A stretch of DNA of 11,560 bases from an uncultured Oscillospiraceae bacterium (GTDB lineage: Bacteria > Bacillota > Clostridia > Oscillospirales > Oscillospiraceae), in contig CAKTLD010000059.1 of the NCBI GenBank assembly GCA_934572445.1, forward strand, positions 1 to 11,560, in the 5' to 3' direction. The notes under the pieces were generated by a model. The model ran no database searches and was not told where the DNA came from. It saw only the letters and a program-made list of their open reading frames with translations. The translations under genes were made by a program, and so were the position numbers. This document shows, piece by piece, positions 4,246-10,787 of the stretch. The number at the start of each line of letters is the position of its first letter. The first letter of the stretch is position 1.

Positions 4246-4806
4246 ATGGCGACTTATCCCATGCACGTCGCGGGTCTTGACCGTGACCTCCCCATCTGCA
4301 AGGTGACCGATGACCTCTATATCGGCGCATTCATCATGTTCGGCGACGCGGAGCTGACCACCCGCTGCGCTTCCGAGCTTTTGAAGCTCGCGGCGGATGT
4401 CGACTACGACTATATGCTCACCGCCGAGGCCAAGTCCATCCCTCTGATCCACGAGATGGCACGCCAGAGCGGCGCGGACAAGTACTTCATTGCGCGCAAG
4501 GGCCCCAAGGTCTATATGCCCGATCCCATCTCCGTGGAGGACAAGTCCATCACCACCGTCGCCCAGCAGAAGCTCTATCTCGGGTCCGACGATGCCGCCG
4601 TTATCCGCGGGAAGAAGATCCTGCTCGTCGATGACGTCATCTCCACGGGCGGCTCGCTCAAGGCGATGGAGGCTCTTGTCGAAAAGGCGGGCGGCACCGT
4701 TACGGGCCGCATGGCCGTTCTCGCCGAGGGCGGCGCAGCCGACCGCAAGGACATCCTGTTTCTTGAAAAGCTGCCGGTCTTCAACGCTGACGGCAGCGTA
4801 AAGTAA
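4246..4806 (+). CDS. Purine phosphoribosyltransferase (adenine phosphoribosyltransferase-like)
   Basis: Type I phosphoribosyltransferase, 186 aa, which joins a purine base to PRPP to make a nucleotide. The PRPP-binding motif is intact at about residues 125-137 (ILLVDDVISTGGS). YMLTAEAKSIPLIHEMAR (56-72) resembles the base-binding AEAKGIPL segment of adenine phosphoribosyltransferases. KVYMPDPISVEDKSITTVAQQKLYL (88-112) covers the flexible hood region. The N-terminus differs from classical Apt, so adenine is the best guess but hypoxanthine or xanthine cannot be excluded. Adenine deaminase 2 kb downstream on the same strand fits a purine-salvage neighbourhood. GAAGGGAG precedes the ATG at unusually long spacing (about 10 nt). 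Confidence 0.85.
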   Translation: MATYPMHVAGLDRDLPICKVTDDLYIGAFIMFGDAELTTRCASELLKLAADVDYDYMLTAEAKSIPLIHEMARQSGADKYFIARKGPKVYMPDPISVEDKSITTVAQQKLYLGSDDAAVIRGKKILLVDDVISTGGSLKAMEALVEKAGGTVTGRMAVLAEGGAADRKDILFLEKLPVFNADGSVK

Positions 4807-4827
4807 AAAAGCTGATCACAGAAGCGC

Positions 4828-4870
4828 AAAGCGCCTTTCAAAGAATTTTCTTTGAAAGGCGCTTTCTTTG
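4828..4870 (+). terminator. Strong intrinsic terminator after the phosphoribosyltransferase
   Basis: A 17 bp perfect stem, AAAGCGCCTTTCAAAGA (4828-4844) with its complement at 4849-4865, loop ATTT, followed by a T-rich tail. It also lies 3' of the convergent lipoprotein gene, so it may serve both strands. Confidence 0.9.
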
Positions 4871-4876
4871 TTCTCT

Positions 4877-5788
4877 TCACTTGCGGGTTAGTCTTGCACC
4901 AAGGAAACACACACCACTTCCGTACACCCAAATGTCACTTTTTCCCCACCCATCAAAGCTCCCGCCTGGTGCATAAATCGAATGATCTATCACCGCACTA
5001 TACGGCTCATCTAAAACATAGTTTCCTCTCTGTGCCCATGAGTATTCAGCAGTAATTGGCTCGTCCGTTTTTGCATTACAATAGTTTGAAAACGGTCCCA
5101 TTGCTGTACAGTATATATCATATTCAAATGTCACTGTGTCCTCATCAATGGACAAAATATTTATATTGATATCGTCATCATCTTGCTTATAATACCATTC
5201 TCCAACAATATCCCATTTCATATCTTTTGCTGCATCATCAATTTCTTTCAATTTCCAACCATCTTTTAAGCTATAAGAATACTCAACCCAAACTGAACAG
5301 CTTATAACAACATACCCCTCATACCCCTCTGTTTTTTCTGCAGTATAAGCAAACAACGCACTCGTGTCTGTAATATTTTTATCTACAAATTTAACCGAAT
5401 CATAACTTTCAGCAACAAGTGCATCCGCCTCCGATTGGTCTACTTCCACTTGCGGTAAATACCTTCGATTTGTTCTGTCGACTTTTTCTAACATCCAGCC
5501 TTCATTATATAACTCGTAAACCAGAGTATATGAAGCATAGTACACACATTCTTCATTTTCTGCCGTTATATCAATCCAGACATAATCGGTCTTCTCGTCC
5601 TCATTTGTCTGTCGTTTTTCCACATTGTATGACGTGATTTTTAGGCCATAATCAAAACTGTCATCACTTGCCATAATATCTTTACATATTTCTTTCTCGC
5701 TCTTAGCTGATGTCCCCCCGCACGAAGTCAATACCACTATAGTTCCTAATATCAGCAAAGTCACCAGTAATCTTTCCAGTATTCTCAT
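4877..5788 (-). CDS. Predicted secreted lipoprotein, unknown function
   Basis: A 303 aa protein I do not recognise beyond its export signal. The N-terminus MRILERLLVTLLILGTIVVL is a lipoprotein signal peptide ending in lipobox LTSC (about residues 20-23), so Cys23 should be lipidated on the outer face of the membrane. The mature part is acidic and rich in Tyr, Asp and Glu. It contains two similar stretches, near YTLVYELYNEGWMLEKVD and WVEYSYSLKDGWKLKEID, which look like repeated domains. I chose the ATG at 5788 because GGGAG lies 8 nt upstream; an in-frame ATG at 5842 would add 18 residues before the signal and lacks such a site. Base composition is clearly more AT-rich than the flanking genes, suggesting transfer. 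The upstream 26 bp site ends 31 bp before the ATG, so expression probably depends on the orientation of the adjacent segment. Confidence 0.85.
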   Translation of the reverse strand: MRILERLLVTLLILGTIVVLTSCGGTSAKSEKEICKDIMASDDSFDYGLKITSYNVEKRQTNEDEKTDYVWIDITAENEECVYYASYTLVYELYNEGWMLEKVDRTNRRYLPQVEVDQSEADALVAESYDSVKFVDKNITDTSALFAYTAEKTEGYEGYVVISCSVWVEYSYSLKDGWKLKEIDDAAKDMKWDIVGEWYYKQDDDDININILSIDEDTVTFEYDIYCTAMGPFSNYCNAKTDEPITAEYSWAQRGNYVLDEPYSAVIDHSIYAPGGSFDGWGKSDIWVYGSGVCFLGARLTRK

Positions 5789-5818
5789 AACATTTTCTCC
5801 CATTTTGTATTTTGCACT

Positions 5819-5844
5819 GTTCAAAAAAGTGTACTTTGGCAAAT
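5819..5844 (+). repeat. Inverted repeat, left (putative recombinase crossover site)
   Basis: Half-sites GTTCAAAAAAGT (5819-5830) and ACTTTGGCAAAT (5833-5844) flank a GT dinucleotide at 5831-5832. It matches the complement of the right copy at 21 of 25 aligned positions, including a 14 bp unbroken core. Confidence 0.75.
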
Positions 5845-5945
5845 AACCAAAAATAAAGCAAACCGTATAAAGAAACAGCTTGCAAAATAGGGAATTATCG
5901 CTATAATGATAATAGAAAGTGTTTGTCGCATGAATTTGTAAAAGT
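5833..5945. promoter_or_regulatory. Putative invertible promoter segment, lipoprotein OFF orientation
   Basis: The 113 bp between the two GT/AC cores. It holds one good promoter, on the plus strand: TTGCAA (5880-5885), a 16 bp spacer, TATAAT (5902-5907). This points away from the lipoprotein gene and into the 3' end of the recombinase gene. The minus strand of the segment offers only weak matches. If the segment inverted, the -10 would fall near 5876-5871 on the minus strand, about 83 nt before the lipoprotein ATG. Inversion itself is inference from the site architecture. Confidence 0.6.
5880..5907 (+). promoter_or_regulatory. Promoter inside the putative invertible segment
   Basis: TTGCAA, a 16 bp spacer, and a perfect TATAAT on the plus strand. 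In the present orientation its transcript would be antisense to the recombinase gene. Confidence 0.72.
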
Positions 5946-5959
5946 ACACTTTTTCAAAT
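5934..5959 (-). repeat. Inverted repeat, right (putative recombinase crossover site)
   Basis: Half-sites ATTTGTAAAAGT (5934-5945) and ACTTTTTCAAAT (5948-5959) flank AC at 5946-5947. The two half-sites are inverted copies of each other at 11 of 12 positions. The site lies 16 bp past the recombinase stop. Confidence 0.75.
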
Positions 5960-5975
5960 TATATGCACACTTCGT

Positions 5976-6591
<616 letters not shown>

Positions 6592-6624
6592 GCTGTTCCT
6601 CCCTGCCGCTTTATTGTGTTCCAC

Positions 6625-6633
6625 AGTATAGCA
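6625..6633 (-). promoter_or_regulatory. Probable extended -10 promoter of the recombinase
   Basis: On the minus strand TGC-TATACT (6633-6625), about 34 bp before the ATG at 6591. No good -35 is seen at the right distance, so it would rely on the TGn element. Confidence 0.45.
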
Positions 6634-6744
6634 AAGGCTTTTCCAGCATCAGCGCACGGTTATGTACACCAGTTTATCGTTCTGTCCTCGCTCGTCTCCC
6701 TCACTTTTCGTCAGTTTCACTAAAAAAGTTTTAGCTTTTTCTGC

Positions 6745-6773
6745 TGGACAAGTGCAAAAGAACGTAGTATCCT
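6745..6773 (+). promoter_or_regulatory. Adenine deaminase promoter
   Basis: TGGACA (6745-6750), a 17 bp spacer, TATCCT (6768-6773), with an untranslated leader of roughly 70 nt. The leader shows no purine-riboswitch core. AGGAGG lies 8-9 nt before the ATG. Confidence 0.62.
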
Positions 6774-6851
6774 ATTAAAAAATATCCGGAAAGGGCCGCC
6801 GCAGAGCCGCACAGGCCGACCAACCAGAGCCGAAAATAAGGAGGATCACGC

Positions 6852-8585
6852 ATGGCATATCGGGAAAGTTACGCGGGCAAGATCAACCGCAAGCTGAACA
6901 AGAAGCTCCACGTCGTCGAGGTGGCCTCGGGACGGCAGAAGGCCGACCTCGTGCTCAAGAACGCGACGTATGTGAACGTCTTCTGCAACGAGCTCAGTCA
7001 TGGCGACATCGCCGTGGCCGAAGGGCTGATCGCAGGCATGGGCGAGCATTACGAGGGCGCGGTCGAGATCGACATGGGCGGCAAGCTCGTGCTGCCCGGC
7101 TTTGTCGACGCGCACATCCACTTAGAGAGCGCGCTCGTTTCCCCCAAGGAATTTGCCAACGCCGTCATTCCGCACGGCACCACGACCGTCATCACCGACC
7201 CGCACGAGATCGCCAACGTCATGGGCACCGACGGCATCGAATACATGCTGCAAGCCACCGAGGATCTTCCCGTCGACGTGCGCTTCATGCTCCCCTCCTG
7301 TGTGCCCGCAACGCCGCTCGACGAATCCGGCGCGGTGCTCGACTACCGCGCGATCGACTCGTTCTATGAGCACAACCGCGTTGAGGGTCTTGCCGAGATG
7401 ATGAACTACGTCGGCGTCGCGAACGCCGACGAGCAGGTGCTGGAAAAGATCGTCGCCGCGCAGGCGCACCACAAGAAGATCGATGGCCACGCGCCGGGGC
7501 TTGCGGGCAACGACTTGAACGCTTACATCGCCGCGGGCGTTTATTCCGACCACGAATGCAGCACCGTTGAGGATGCCATCGCCAAGCTCGAGCGCGGGCA
7601 GTACATCATGATCCGCGAGGGTACGGCCGCGCGCAACCTTGACGCGCTCCTCCCGCTGCTCACGCCGCAGTACTACACCTACTGCATGTTCTGCACGGAC
7701 GACAAGCACCCGAACGACCTGCTCGAAAAGGGCCATATTGACTACATCGTGCGCAGGGCCATCAAGGCGGGCGTCGACCCGATCATCGCCGTCAAATGTG
7801 CGAGCCACCACGCCGCGCGCTACTTCCTGCTCAACAACCGCGGCGCGATCGCGCCGGGCTTCCTCGCGGATTTTGTCATCATCGACAACTTTGACGATTT
7901 CAACATTCTTGAGGTCTATAAAAAAGGCAAGCTCATGTTCGACGGCAAGACCGTCACGCCCTTTGACGCACCTGAGATCGACCCGCACCTTGTCAAGCGC
8001 TCGCATGAGACGTTCCACGTCGCTCACCTTGAGGCGAAGGACTTCATCGAGTCCCGCCCGCGCGCTGTGCTCGGCATGGTGCCCGGCGAGATCGTCACGA
8101 CTGACGCAGGCTACGCCGAAAAGATCAGCGTCGAGGACGACATCTTGAAAATTGCCGTCATCGAGCGCCACAAGAACACGCATCATATCGGCATCGGCTA
8201 CATCAAGGGTTACGGCCTCAAGTCCGGCGCGGTGGCAACGTCCATCTCGCACGACAGCCACAACATCATCGTTGTCGGCGCGAATGAAGAGGACATGGCT
8301 GCGGCGGTCAACCGCGTGGTCGAGCTTGGCGGCGGCATCGTCGTGATGGACGGCGGCAAGGTGCTCGGCGAGGTGCAGCTCCAGATTGCGGGCATCATGA
8401 GCGAAGCGCCGCTCATCGAAGTCAACGAAGCGCTTGAGAACGCCAAGGAGCAGGCCTTTGCCCTCGGTGTTTCCCGCGGGGTCGATCCGTTTATGACGCT
8501 CTCGTTCATGGCGCTGACCGTCATCCCGACGCTGCGCCTCACGACGCGCGGCGTGTTCGATGTGATCAACCAGCGCTATGTGTAA
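6852..8585 (+). CDS. ade: Adenine deaminase
   Basis: Cytoplasmic metal-dependent amidohydrolase that converts adenine to hypoxanthine and ammonia, 577 aa, normal for the Ade family. Metal and active-site motifs appear in order: D86AHIHLE92, D116PHEIANV123, D211GHAPG216, S232DHEC236 and C281TDDKHP287. The C-terminal domain keeps the family's ISHDSHNIIVVG segment and ends with a TLSFMALTVIPTLRLTTRGVFD stretch typical of this enzyme. The ATG at 6852 follows AAGGAGG. It is a single-gene transcription unit with its own promoter and terminator. With the phosphoribosyltransferase upstream it completes adenine salvage; the AT-rich lipoprotein/recombinase island lies between them. Confidence 0.97.
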   Translation: MAYRESYAGKINRKLNKKLHVVEVASGRQKADLVLKNATYVNVFCNELSHGDIAVAEGLIAGMGEHYEGAVEIDMGGKLVLPGFVDAHIHLESALVSPKEFANAVIPHGTTTVITDPHEIANVMGTDGIEYMLQATEDLPVDVRFMLPSCVPATPLDESGAVLDYRAIDSFYEHNRVEGLAEMMNYVGVANADEQVLEKIVAAQAHHKKIDGHAPGLAGNDLNAYIAAGVYSDHECSTVEDAIAKLERGQYIMIREGTAARNLDALLPLLTPQYYTYCMFCTDDKHPNDLLEKGHIDYIVRRAIKAGVDPIIAVKCASHHAARYFLLNNRGAIAPGFLADFVIIDNFDDFNILEVYKKGKLMFDGKTVTPFDAPEIDPHLVKRSHETFHVAHLEAKDFIESRPRAVLGMVPGEIVTTDAGYAEKISVEDDILKIAVIERHKNTHHIGIGYIKGYGLKSGAVATSISHDSHNIIVVGANEEDMAAAVNRVVELGGGIVVMDGGKVLGEVQLQIAGIMSEAPLIEVNEALENAKEQAFALGVSRGVDPFMTLSFMALTVIPTLRLTTRGVFDVINQRYV

Positions 8586-8694: not shown

Positions 8695-8733
8695 GCCGGT
8701 GTGATGGAATTGGTAGACGTAGCGGACTCAAAA
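8695..8733 (+). pseudogene. Truncated tRNA-Leu (5' half only)
   Basis: Acceptor strand GCCGGTG, D arm and the 5' side of the anticodon arm through loop CTCAAAA (anticodon CAA). It matches the intact copy at 8874 except for one inserted T in the D loop and one C/T change. Homology stops exactly at the 3' edge of the anticodon loop. The following GCCAG-TAAGT-CTGGC hairpin (8734-8748) does not rebuild the anticodon stem, and no T arm follows. Confidence 0.88.
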
Positions 8734-8873
8734 GCCAGTAAGTCTGGCAGTATGAACTCTGGTAAAATCCTTGATTTTTCAAGGCTTCCCAGTTACAATA
8801 AAATATGGCTTTTGTAGTGAGTTCTCTCCTTGTTCTCTCCTATGAGAATTTTGGGAGTTTCTCGATAAAATGT
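8734..8873. other. Spacer between the tRNA-Leu 5' half and the intact tRNA-Leu
   Basis: 140 bp of AT-rich sequence with two small hairpins, GCCAG/CTGGC (8734-8748) and CCTTGA/TCAAGG (8769-8784), and no gene. It is bounded by direct repeats of the tRNA 5' half, so it may be the remnant of an excised or decayed integrated element. Confidence 0.5.
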
Positions 8874-8959
8874 GCCGGTGTGATGGAATGGTAGACGTAG
8901 CGGATTCAAAATCCGCCGGGGGCAACTCCATGTGGGTTCGAGTCCCACCACCGGCACCA
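8874..8959 (+). tRNA. tRNA-Leu, anticodon CAA
   Basis: Complete class II tRNA, 86 nt with encoded CCA. Acceptor stem GCCGGTG/CACCGGC; anticodon stem GCGGA/TCCGC with loop TTCAAAA; a long variable arm, GGGGGCAACTCC-like, as expected for Leu; T arm GTGGG-TTCGAGT-CCCAC; discriminator A then CCA. The integrase gene begins 74 bp past its 3' end, so it is a likely attachment site. Confidence 0.96.
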
Positions 8960-8962
8960 CTT

Positions 8963-9010
8963 GAAAAGACTGGATTTTTCCATATAGGAAAAGCTCGGTC
9001 TTTTCCATTT
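8963..9010 (+). terminator. Probable tRNA-Leu terminator
   Basis: Outer stem GAAAAGAC (8963-8970) with GTCTTTTC (8998-9005), inner stem TTTTCC-ATATA-GGAAAA, ending in a T-rich run. The stem is AT-rich for a terminator, but the position directly after the CCA fits. Confidence 0.6.
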
Positions 9011-9033
9011 TTAGCCGCGTTCAACCGCGCTTC

Positions 9034-10221
9034 TCACGCTTGCACAGCTTCTCTTGCTGCAAGGTTTGCACTGATGGTAAAATTGTCCTGCATCGCATTG
9101 CCTGTGATCTCCTTCGAGCTTGACTCCAGATGGGCGTAGATATTTGCAGTTGTATTGTAATTGCTATGCCCCAACCACGCCTGAATATCTTTCATTGAAA
9201 TTCCGCTCTTGAGAAGGAGGCTCGCGCAGGTATGTCTCAATTCATGGAAAGTAATCTCCCGCAGGTTGTTATTCTTCAAGAGCAACTTAAAATGCTGCGA
9301 TACATAATTAGGCCTGATTGGCTCCCCGAGATCATTCACATAGATATAGTCACTTTCATGATAGCAGTTGCCACAGAGTTCGCGGTATTCCTCCTGATGT
9401 TTTTTCATTTGAAGCAACAACCTCCGGTATTCCGGAACTAGCGGCAAGGTACGATAGCTCTTTTTGTTCTTCGGTCGATCCTTTGCAACAATGGTGTCCT
9501 TTCCATCAATACTAACCTCAACAACTACATGCGCAATCGTGATCGTATTGGCGTCAAAGTCAATAGAATCCCATTTCAGGCCCATGATCTCAGAACGGCG
9601 TAGCCCGTAAAATGCTGCCATCAACACGGGAAACTCGGCTCCATCCCCCTTTACGCAACTAAGCAGATGCTCTACCTCTGATAAGGTATAGAATTTTCCG
9701 ATGTGCTCGACCTGCTTAGGGCGCATCCCGCGTTTCAGGGGAGTCATTGGAATCTTCTCCAGCCGAACGGCATCGTTGAGGGCTTTGCTGATGTTTGCGT
9801 GGTACTTGATGATCGTGTTGTTGCTGATCTCCAGTTCCGTTGCACAATAGGTATAGAAGTCTTGAATGTCACCGGCACGCAGACCGCCCAGCGTGACCTT
9901 ACGCCCACGAAAAAACGGGACGATACGCTTTTCAACATTCGTTTTGTATCCAGCGTAAGTCGTTATATCCACGGATGATTTGATTTGCCTGAGCCAGTAG
10001 AGCATATAGTCGGCAAAAAGCATATTGGCATCGGCTGTACGCTGATACTCAGCAGGCTGATATTTTTGTCGTTCTGCTACCAGCATTGCCTCCGCCTTTC
10101 GTTTGTTGCCCTTCACCGACAGTCCTGTTGCTATCCACTTACGTTTTCGCTTTCCATCCGAGTCCACAAAGTTTAATACAATATAAAAAATAGTATTTGA
10201 ATTTGAGTTGCCGAAAAGCAT
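9034..10221 (-). pseudogene. Tyrosine integrase of ICE/phage type, N-terminus displaced by an insertion
   Basis: Tyrosine recombinase with an intact catalytic domain. Numbered from a GTG at 10386, the residues are: Arg in FYGLRRSE (R263), H381-x2-R384 in HELRHTCASLLLKSG, His in LGHSN (H407), and nucleophile Y417 in TTANIYAHL. The SAM-like core-binding domain is at about 120-215. Authentic family sequence starts at FYIVLNF (about 10188), whose normal first 12-14 residues are found 1.1 kb away at 11314-11358. Upstream of that point the frame is open to 10386 but reads unrelated sequence. An ATG at 10221 and the GTG at 10386 both lack a good ribosome binding site. Lying 74 bp from tRNA-Leu(CAA), it likely served an element integrated there. 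It may still make a shortened protein, but the original promoter and start are gone. Confidence 0.85.
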
Positions 10222-10298
10222 TAAACGAAGAAAACCGTTGTAAATACTGACTTTTTTGCCTATTAACACACTTGAATACACAACGATTATTGATTTTA

Positions 10299-10317
10299 TG
10301 GTGCCCAAATGGTGCCC
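10299..10317 (+). repeat. 19 bp direct repeat, copy 1
   Basis: TGGTGCCCAAATGGTGCCC, itself an 11 bp-period tandem of TGGTGCCC. It matches 11161-11179 at 17 of 19 positions. The pair brackets the pyrophosphatase-like gene. Confidence 0.8.
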
Positions 10318-10393
10318 GAATTTACTGCGGCAATATAAAATGATACAAGCAGATGTAAAGACAAAAACGATGATAGATAAATTCACAGCTTTG

Positions 10394-10439: not shown

Positions 10440-10787
10440 ATGCACAGATTTGATAATAGTTTCTGGAGTACATTAGATGCCTTAGTCAGCAAATCAGAAA
10501 TCATCATAGATAGGCCAAAAGGAACTGCACATCCTAAATATCCTGATTTCATTTATAAAGTCAATTATGGGTATTTGAAAGATACAGCATCCATGGATGG
10601 CGCAGGGATAGATGTATGGGTCGGAACGAATGGGAAAAATATAGATGCTATTATGTGTATTGTTGATTTGATGAAAAGGGATTCTGAAATTAAAATACTG
10701 ATAGGTTGCACGGAAGAAGAAAAGGCTATTATATACGAAACCCACAATGAAACACAGTACATGAAAGGAATTTTAATTCGTCGATAA
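10440..10787 (+). CDS. Short inorganic-pyrophosphatase-like protein
   Basis: A 115 aa protein resembling the core of soluble family I pyrophosphatases, which split pyrophosphate and are usually near 170 aa or longer. YKVNYGYLKDTASMDGAGIDVWV (39-61) aligns with the family's YPANYGF-DGDPLDVLV region. Y43, Y45, D53 and D58 are kept, but the middle aspartate of DGDPLD is A55; in E. coli that residue (Asp67) is the proposed general base. DLMKRDSEIK (76-85) may match the DEAGEDAK metal-binding loop, with D76 and D81 kept. The N-terminal strand is short, retaining DRPKG (24-28). GGAGGAG lies just before the ATG, so it looks translated. AT-rich, inside the insertion that splits the integrase. It may be a small divergent family with another substrate rather than a true pyrophosphatase. 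Confidence 0.75.
   Translation: MHRFDNSFWSTLDALVSKSEIIIDRPKGTAHPKYPDFIYKVNYGYLKDTASMDGAGIDVWVGTNGKNIDAIMCIVDLMKRDSEIKILIGCTEEEKAIIYETHNETQYMKGILIRR

Follow-up and report, generated by a model that had tools for sequence, protein, structure and literature searches.

The locus

The stretch of DNA that we analysed (the window; 11,560 nucleotides of contig CAKTLD010000059.1, from an uncultured Oscillospiraceae bacterium) has a pair of inverted 26-bp sites, with a promoter-like sequence between them, in the gap between a putative lipoprotein gene and a gene for a serine recombinase (Table 1). An earlier, sequence-only reading of this DNA proposed that the sites bound an invertible promoter switch. 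The sites are as it described them: the left site is GTTCAAAAAAGT-GT-ACTTTGGCAAAT, the right site is ATTTGTAAAAGT-AC-ACTTTTTCAAAT, and the left site agrees with the reverse complement of the right site at 21 of 26 positions. As expected for crossover sites, each has two half-sites around an asymmetric 2-bp core, and the cores are equal once the sites are aligned. The half-sites of the right site are identical at 11 of 12 positions, by that reading's count and by ours; those of the left site, for which it gave no figure, match at 7 of 12. The spacing is 113 bp from core to core (5833-5945) or 115 bp from centre to centre, with 89 bp between the sites. The right site is 16 bp from the stop codon of the recombinase gene (5976-5978), and the left site is 30 bp from the lipoprotein's ATG.

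Table 1. Features of the window. Site scores are from a profile whose training loci included the window itself.
Feature	Position	Strand	Remarks
Lipoprotein gene, presumed target	4877..5788	-	303 aa; ATG at 5788
Left crossover-like site	5819..5844		Core GT at 5831-5832; profile score 22.0
Right crossover-like site	5934..5959		Core AC at 5946-5947; profile score 26.4
Predicted invertible segment between cores	5833..5945		By analogy with relatives' segments that are inverted between collinear flanks
Weak terminator-like hairpin	5858..5883	-	Faces the lipoprotein in the drawn orientation; seen in the window only
Promoter-like TTGCAA-16-TATAAT	5880..5907	+	Directed away from the lipoprotein gene; would read the recombinase gene in antisense; consensus match only
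Recombinase 3' piece, other frame	5976..6398	-	Pfam Resolvase, E = 6.5e-12
Recombinase 5' piece, catalytic-serine region	6355..6591	-	Pfam Resolvase, E = 3.5e-11
Perfect 17-bp inverted repeat, 6-nt loop	6369..6408		Place of the break in the recombinase frame
AT-rich island: lipoprotein, switch, recombinase	4873..6699		Between conserved flanks
tRNA-Leu, partial copy (apparent end of integrated element)	8696-8735
tRNA-Leu (apparent end of integrated element)	8874-8959
Tyrosine integrase (apparent end of integrated element)	9034-10386

The best inverted 26-bp pair in 5769-6168 matches at 21 of 26 positions. This was equalled in 1 of 200 dinucleotide shuffles (mean 16.6), and when the whole window was divided into 56 overlapping 400-nt tiles, 2 reached this level. 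Between the sites, the sequence-only reading had noticed a TTGCAA-16-TATAAT promoter directed away from the lipoprotein gene, and we located it on the + strand, with 26 nt from the end of its -10 element to the boundary where transcription would exit the segment. So the inverted repeats around a promoter that are expected of an inverton are present, with the promoter being a consensus match. By itself, this putative promoter is weak: there are 6 promoter-like matches in 4800-6860, as compared to a mean of 4.6 in shuffled sequence (standard deviation 2.1), so they are not clearly commoner than expected.

The recombinase gene (6624-5976, - strand, the same strand as the lipoprotein gene) adjoins the sites and was overlooked in the sequence-only reading. 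Both of its pieces match PF00239, as expected for a small serine recombinase, although the frame is broken. The 5' open frame runs from 6624, and comparison with an intact homologue, P0004, puts the start codon at 6591; this piece contains what we take to be the catalytic serine motif. The 3' piece (140 amino acids) is 99% identical to P0004, which has 205 amino acids and belongs to a cluster of 104 member sequences. The sequence-only reading cited serine invertases such as Hin. Its proposal of a serine recombinase fits, but the best match of P0004 among solved structures is Sin/bin3 (PDB 2r0q; E = 1.4e-28, 103 bits), and entries that are titled as DNA-invertases reach at best 63.8 bits. Among solved structures, the closest relatives are not Hin or Gin, as judged by sequence match rather than by a tree.

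Site pairs beside related recombinases

Similar site pairs lie beside many related recombinase genes. Our first set of 90 loci comprises the best 80 of at least 551 stretches that encode relatives (from a recombinase alignment scan of named genomes) and 10 viral loci. For the 81 loci with enough sequence, we searched without a profile in the 300 nt that begin 20 nt before the recombinase stop codon, and 36 of them have an inverted 26-bp pair that matches at 20 or more of 26 positions. Among the controls, such a pair occurs in none of 81 shuffled sequences, in 3 of 81 stretches upstream, and in none of 70 taken 2 kb away. A site profile that was trained on the first set identified pairs in 50 of the 90 loci as well as in the window, with a few being weak (such as those at L023 and L040). 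For this profile, the mean was 0.0 in five shuffles per locus, and pairs were found in 2 of 85 stretches upstream and in none of 67 farther away.

The second set comes from using P0004 to search 400 genomes of the same family, of which 227 have a match at E ≤ 0.001 if distant matches are included (at most seven candidates were scored per genome). It comprises 29 new loci (L240-L268), 80 further places on the list of matches (others were omitted because a contig end was close by or to stay at 80), and 30 loci from a search of the genus, for a total of 139. Of these, 125 have a recombinase match and 7 are too short, so 118 loci were tested with the profile held fixed. Pairs were found in 60 of the 118, as compared to 0.0 in shuffled sequences and 0 of 40 upstream stretches with enough sequence. 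We removed 7 pairs whose segments are identical to ones in the first set, which left 53. One of these (L211) is the same place as L178, which was counted in our first set for phasing (see below) and was not used to train the profile, and another (L281) is nearly identical to L048.

The two cores are equal in all 51 first-set pairs (including the window's) and in 52 of the 53 second-set pairs. The profile itself favours GT, so the independent evidence comes from the pairs with other cores, which are equal in 6 of 6 cases in the first set (CT in four, AT in one, and AA in one) and in 3 of 3 in the second. The position is also consistent: in 36 of the 50 first-set pairs, the first site starts 5-20 bp past the recombinase stop codon. 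Taken alone, the site pair in the window is suggestive; together with the pairs in relatives, it is convincing.

When viral contigs were scanned with a pattern for ideal site pairs, none matched. A recombinase alignment scan of these contigs gave 17 loci, and the only one with a pair had already been counted. At L016 (5824-6370), the end of the contig is a near-perfect inverted copy of the recombinase's 3' end around the switch, with some mismatches; it is possible that these are two convergent genes or that this is an effect of assembly. We also observed up to seven recombinase matches in one genome (seven being the most that we scored, and not all of them close), so a single cell may contain several active switches.

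Inversion between related loci

Inversion between the sites has happened in nature, in relatives of this locus. We compared 108 segments to each other in both orientations (1,662 pairs of similar length) and computed z scores for the 160 best alignments. The strongest inverted match is between L268 and L310 (z = 14.4); a second inverted pair has z = 9.7, and the others are at 5.7 or less. The flanks of L268 and L310 are collinear, with DNA identities of 78% on the recombinase side and 83-87% on the downstream side, but the stretch from site to site aligns on the opposite strand (84% identity over 131 columns). Similarly, L018 and L305 are collinear on the recombinase side (81%) and inverted in the segment (73%), and their downstream genes differ. 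Inversion of segments of this kind is thus seen between related loci. In the window itself, the segment is seen in one orientation, and with the recombinase's frame broken it may no longer flip.

L268 (1-3600) and L310 (1-1801) each have a recombinase, the switch, a CsrA-like gene, and a flagellin gene, with their segments in opposite orientations. This is possibly a flagellin switch in gut Clostridia. The downstream genes were recognized by eye from their likeness to those at L011 and L003, whose products are in the set of proteins scanned against Pfam (see below); in that set, CsrA and flagellin were each matched once. We had considered the flagellin segments of L003, L011, and L159 as the case of inversion (L011 against flipped L159 scored 23.5, with 4 of 1,000 shuffles; L003 against L159 was not significant), but L268/L310 is far stronger, so we use it instead.

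Helical phasing of the sites

The distances between paired sites are phased with a step of about one helical turn. Phasing was first noticed in the data, in 53 distances (47 first-set pairs, including the window's and leaving out four copies or close relatives, and 6 further pairs), and we used the second set as a test. For the first 53 distances, with a step of about 10.7 bp, R = 0.81 and the Rayleigh p is about 7e-16; none of 5,000 jittered sets equalled this, and the 22 distinct lengths alone give p of about 5e-6. At 10.7 bp, the second set has R = 0.814 (p of about 6e-16) and nearly the same phase (-2.51 versus -2.50 bp). Taken by itself, the second set fits best to a period of 11.0 bp; with only its 15 distinct lengths counted, p = 0.003.

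Kinship among the loci does not account for the phasing, because it persists when each recombinase cluster is represented by a single locus (clusters at 80% identity: n = 51, p of about 1e-14; at 70%: n = 12, p = 3e-4). Also, where nearest relatives differ in spacing by at least 5 bp (42 of 86 pairs, with differences of 0-4 bp in the remaining 44), the differences are themselves phased (p = 4.5e-8). In a post hoc tally, 96 of 103 pairs, including the window's at 115 bp, are within 2 bp of 115 + 10.7n, as compared to 38.5 expected. We infer from the phased spacing that both sites have to lie on the same face of a short DNA loop. Phasing experiments are known for the Hin enhancer (passages of PMC3798978), and in the open-licence literature of PubMed Central (PMC) we found no title on phasing between the crossover sites of serine invertases. 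The 103 natural pairs amount to an evolutionary measurement of an invertase that joins sites closer together than the persistence length of DNA.

Promoters, orientation, and neighbouring genes

We counted promoters in 50 first-set segments (the window was included, and L083 was dropped as a copy of L079). A sigma-70-like promoter that scores at least 10.5 is present in 24 of them, while 100 shuffles gave a mean of 1.24 and at most 4. Of these promoters, 21 face the recombinase and 4 face the downstream side, with one segment having both. At the window's level (a score of at least 10), the count is 28 of 50 (shuffles: mean 3.03, at most 8). In the second set, 21 of 53 segments have a promoter at 10.5 or above (60 shuffles: mean 0.82, at most 5). 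The promoters are also clustered in position: in 37 of 38 segments that score at least 9.5, the -10 element ends 15-40 nt from the exit boundary (median 26), as compared to 12.3 expected if positions were uniform, although this range was picked after seeing the values.

If promoters that face away from the downstream gene indicate the OFF state, then 26 first-set segments are OFF (including the window's), 5 are ON, and 19 are ambiguous. The corresponding calls in the second set are 29 OFF, 3 ON, and 21 unclear, so that of all 103 segments, 55 are clearly OFF, 8 are ON, and 40 are unclear. These states are inferred. The bias towards OFF is strong, and at most loci the OFF promoters are directed into the recombinase gene, which is a few bp distant. 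The OFF-state promoter could provide antisense control of the recombinase.

Among 49 first-set loci that we looked at for an open frame leading away from the recombinase (starting within 350 bp), 45 have one, and in 33 of these it starts 13-90 bp past the second site. By a crude signal-peptide rule, 13 of the 45 products look secreted. Of these 45 proteins and the window's lipoprotein, we scanned 36 against Pfam. Among the matches listed (25 of 36 families) are AMP-binding enzymes (4), zinc-ribbon proteins (3), TadZ-like proteins (2), Ig-like proteins (2), VWA proteins (2), flagellin (1), CsrA (1), and others. A search of the flagellin segments for the sigma-28 motif pattern found no match; by eye we noted an unproved resemblance to it around CCGATAAT.

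The presumed target in the window is more obscure. The lipoprotein has a sequence, LTSC, that is presumably its lipobox, and it has no match in Pfam at E = 1e-4. With it as the query, we found no relative in genome contigs or in viral contigs, and weak matches to parts of it in 8 of the 400 family genomes. A protein search found three homologues, one of which is 98% identical (from a cluster of 76 members). The predicted structure has a mean predicted local distance difference test (pLDDT) score of 53.6, with residues 31-112 being better, and it has no fold match at E ≤ 0.001 but a weak resemblance to cystatins. We consider the lipoprotein to be the likely target of the switch.

A proposed compact switch, drawn OFF

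We propose, with high confidence as to its design, that the locus is a compact promoter switch of a Sin-like serine invertase, with phased sites and drawn OFF. It would be a self-contained cassette for phase variation. The small Sin-like recombinase encoded just upstream would bind the two inverted 26-bp sites, which are 115 bp apart and would be joined over a short DNA loop that requires them to be on the same side of the helix. The recombinase would then cut at the 2-bp cores and the segment would invert. In the drawn orientation, the promoter would direct transcription away from the lipoprotein and towards the recombinase gene, entering it at its 3' end; this fits the earlier assignment of the window as OFF. 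With the segment inverted, the transcript would begin about 75 nt before the lipoprotein's ATG (ON). The action of the window's recombinase on the window's sites and the short-loop synapse are predictions. In the data that we examined, which were contig sequences rather than reads, we found none of the conditions that the sequence-only reading had named as telling against a switch.

Several observations count against this proposal. The recombinase gene is frame-broken in the window's copy, and the window's promoter scores 10 of 12.5, below the level of 10.5 that we applied to the family. No pair was found in 40 of the 90 first-set loci (some of which are cut by the end of a contig) or in 58 of the 118 later loci. 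The protein search found only three homologues of the lipoprotein, and around eight weak tblastn matches to parts of it there was no site-like sequence in 3-kb loci. There are no reads, pairs of strains, or flipped copies that show 5833-5945 itself in the other orientation, and L268/L310 is a comparison between two related loci in a single, possibly mixed, genome rather than between two states of one locus. Finally, most strong matches between segments share one orientation. As inverted matches are few, flipping is rare or strongly biased to OFF.

It is also possible, although we think it less likely than not, that there is a large family of such switches in gut Clostridia, each with one Sin-like recombinase gene and one site pair that is phased for a short loop, and in which the OFF promoter, being antisense to the recombinase, would stabilize the OFF state and explain the OFF bias. 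We found no name for such a family in open-licence PMC literature, which was searched mostly by title.

Alternative explanations

The alternative that survives best is that the switch in the window is a relic: it once worked, the recombinase is dead in this lineage, and the lipoprotein is permanently OFF or uses another promoter. We consider this a serious possibility, if somewhat less probable than its opposite. The reading frame of the recombinase breaks off within an inverted repeat that has perfect 17-bp arms. In 80 relatives, by contrast, no perfect repeat at the corresponding position (with a loop of 3-14 nt) exceeds 7 bp, and a few of them show an imperfect version. A template switch in a near-palindrome can leave a perfect inverted repeat, so the break is what such a mutation would leave. 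The direction of the change is only inferred, because the nearest relative whose DNA was compared is 80% identical to the recombinase at the protein level and the comparison to P0004 is of proteins. Against a relic, P0004 is intact and nearly identical, so the break may be a polymorphism among strains or a sequence error, or it may be covered by a second recombinase. With P0004 intact and a 98% identical lipoprotein known, the window's copy may be the locked form of a switch that is otherwise live, or it may contain a sequence error. The broken frame of the sequenced copy means that the window's switch is probably fixed in the OFF state, except if a different recombinase acts on it or the sequence is wrong at the break. 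If it is stuck, the window may illustrate how such a switch becomes locked.

We also asked if the near-palindrome might be a conserved antisense terminator. Relative to draws of synonymous codons, the mean z was -0.86, with 17 of 80 relatives below -2, so this is unsupported across the family.

A second recombinase that flips the segment in trans, which would make the broken neighbour irrelevant, seems unlikely to us. Genomes of the same genus group do have up to six matches at E ≤ 0.001, some of them distant. However, the close relative G219 has only weak matches (the best is at E = 5e-7), and the sites differ between loci, so cross-recognition is uncertain.

It is very improbable that the paired sites are operators for the recombinase or for a repressor and do not recombine. 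Dyad-symmetric sites around a promoter-like sequence would also suit repression, but operators would not account for the segments that are inverted between collinear flanks (L268/L310) or for the agreement of cores within pairs, which extends to cores other than GT. Least probable of all is that these are sites of a resolvase or transposition system and that their inverted arrangement is irrelevant to expression. Among solved structures, the recombinase does come closest to those of Sin/bin3 and gamma-delta resolvase, but inverted sites would invert rather than resolve, the promoters within segments are clustered in position, and a neighbouring frame usually starts shortly past the second site (in the 33 of 45 first-set loci described above).

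Genomic context

The island is flanked by an adenine phosphoribosyltransferase-like gene and an adenine deaminase. The close relative G219, which is within the 18-genome genus group of the genome that contains L011 (G002), has 91% DNA identity to the window in two large flanking blocks and 85% in the block before the island. At the island's position it has an open frame that, read by eye, is a putative CPBP-type protease. The aligned flanks are about 275 bp apart in G262 and about 222 bp apart in G388. Thus, 4873-6699 is a variable place between two purine-salvage genes, with another gene in the close relative and almost nothing in two other genomes. Because the content at this place varies among relatives, the switch cassette looks acquired. 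The close relative's 12-kb locus (L125) has no sites at a score of 12. The island's DNA had no match among plasmids, and comparing 5700-6850 to phages gave two partial matches, both on the recombinase.

Further downstream is a tRNA-Leu (CAA) gene. Inspection by eye shows that its 5' half is partly duplicated about 175 bp upstream, and a gene for a tyrosine integrase closely follows the tRNA gene, so 8696-10386 looks like the end of an integrated element. At gathering scores, Rfam identified only tRNA in the window. A small open frame at 10440-10784 barely passes the cut-off for the InPase family (27.0 bits against 26.8).

Comparison with known systems

The window's recombinase shares its catalytic domain family with Sin (Tn552 bin3), its best match among solved structures. 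Sin is a resolvase that works with an architectural DNA-bending protein, as described in passages of PMC2764113. Unlike Sin's sites, the paired sites in the window are inverted, are close together, and flank a promoter.

In the Hin/hix system, which switches flagellin in Salmonella, a serine recombinase inverts a promoter, and the half-sites lie about a 2-bp core. As with Hin, flagellin genes are among the neighbours of the relatives of the window's recombinase. Unlike in Hin/hix, the two crossover sites in the window are just 115 bp apart and the recombinase gene lies outside the segment. Hin-type systems also use a Fis enhancer, whereas the 89 bp between the window's sites leave little room for an internal enhancer (judged from the spacing, with no scan for enhancers).

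Mpi of Bacteroides fragilis is, in passages of PMC5903667, a serine recombinase that inverts regulatory segments and the master enzyme for at least 13 scattered regions. The proposed family resembles Mpi in that a serine recombinase inverts regulatory segments, but the relatives' recombinase genes have a site pair alongside. Invertible segments are also found in Clostridia in the RecV switches and in inverton group 139. RecV of Clostridioides difficile is a tyrosine recombinase (passages of PMC5903667), as are the members of invertase group 35 (passages of PMC11892184), whereas the window's family is of serine recombinases. The recombinases of clostridial invertons that are named in those passages are of the tyrosine type; here, a serine family carries its own pair of target sites. 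These site pairs adjoin diverse genes (flagellin with a CsrA-like gene, AMP-binding enzymes, and TadZ-like, Ig-like, and VWA proteins). Because the family carries its own site pair beside such diverse genes, the presence of a switch, and likely its ON or OFF state, should be predictable from sequence.
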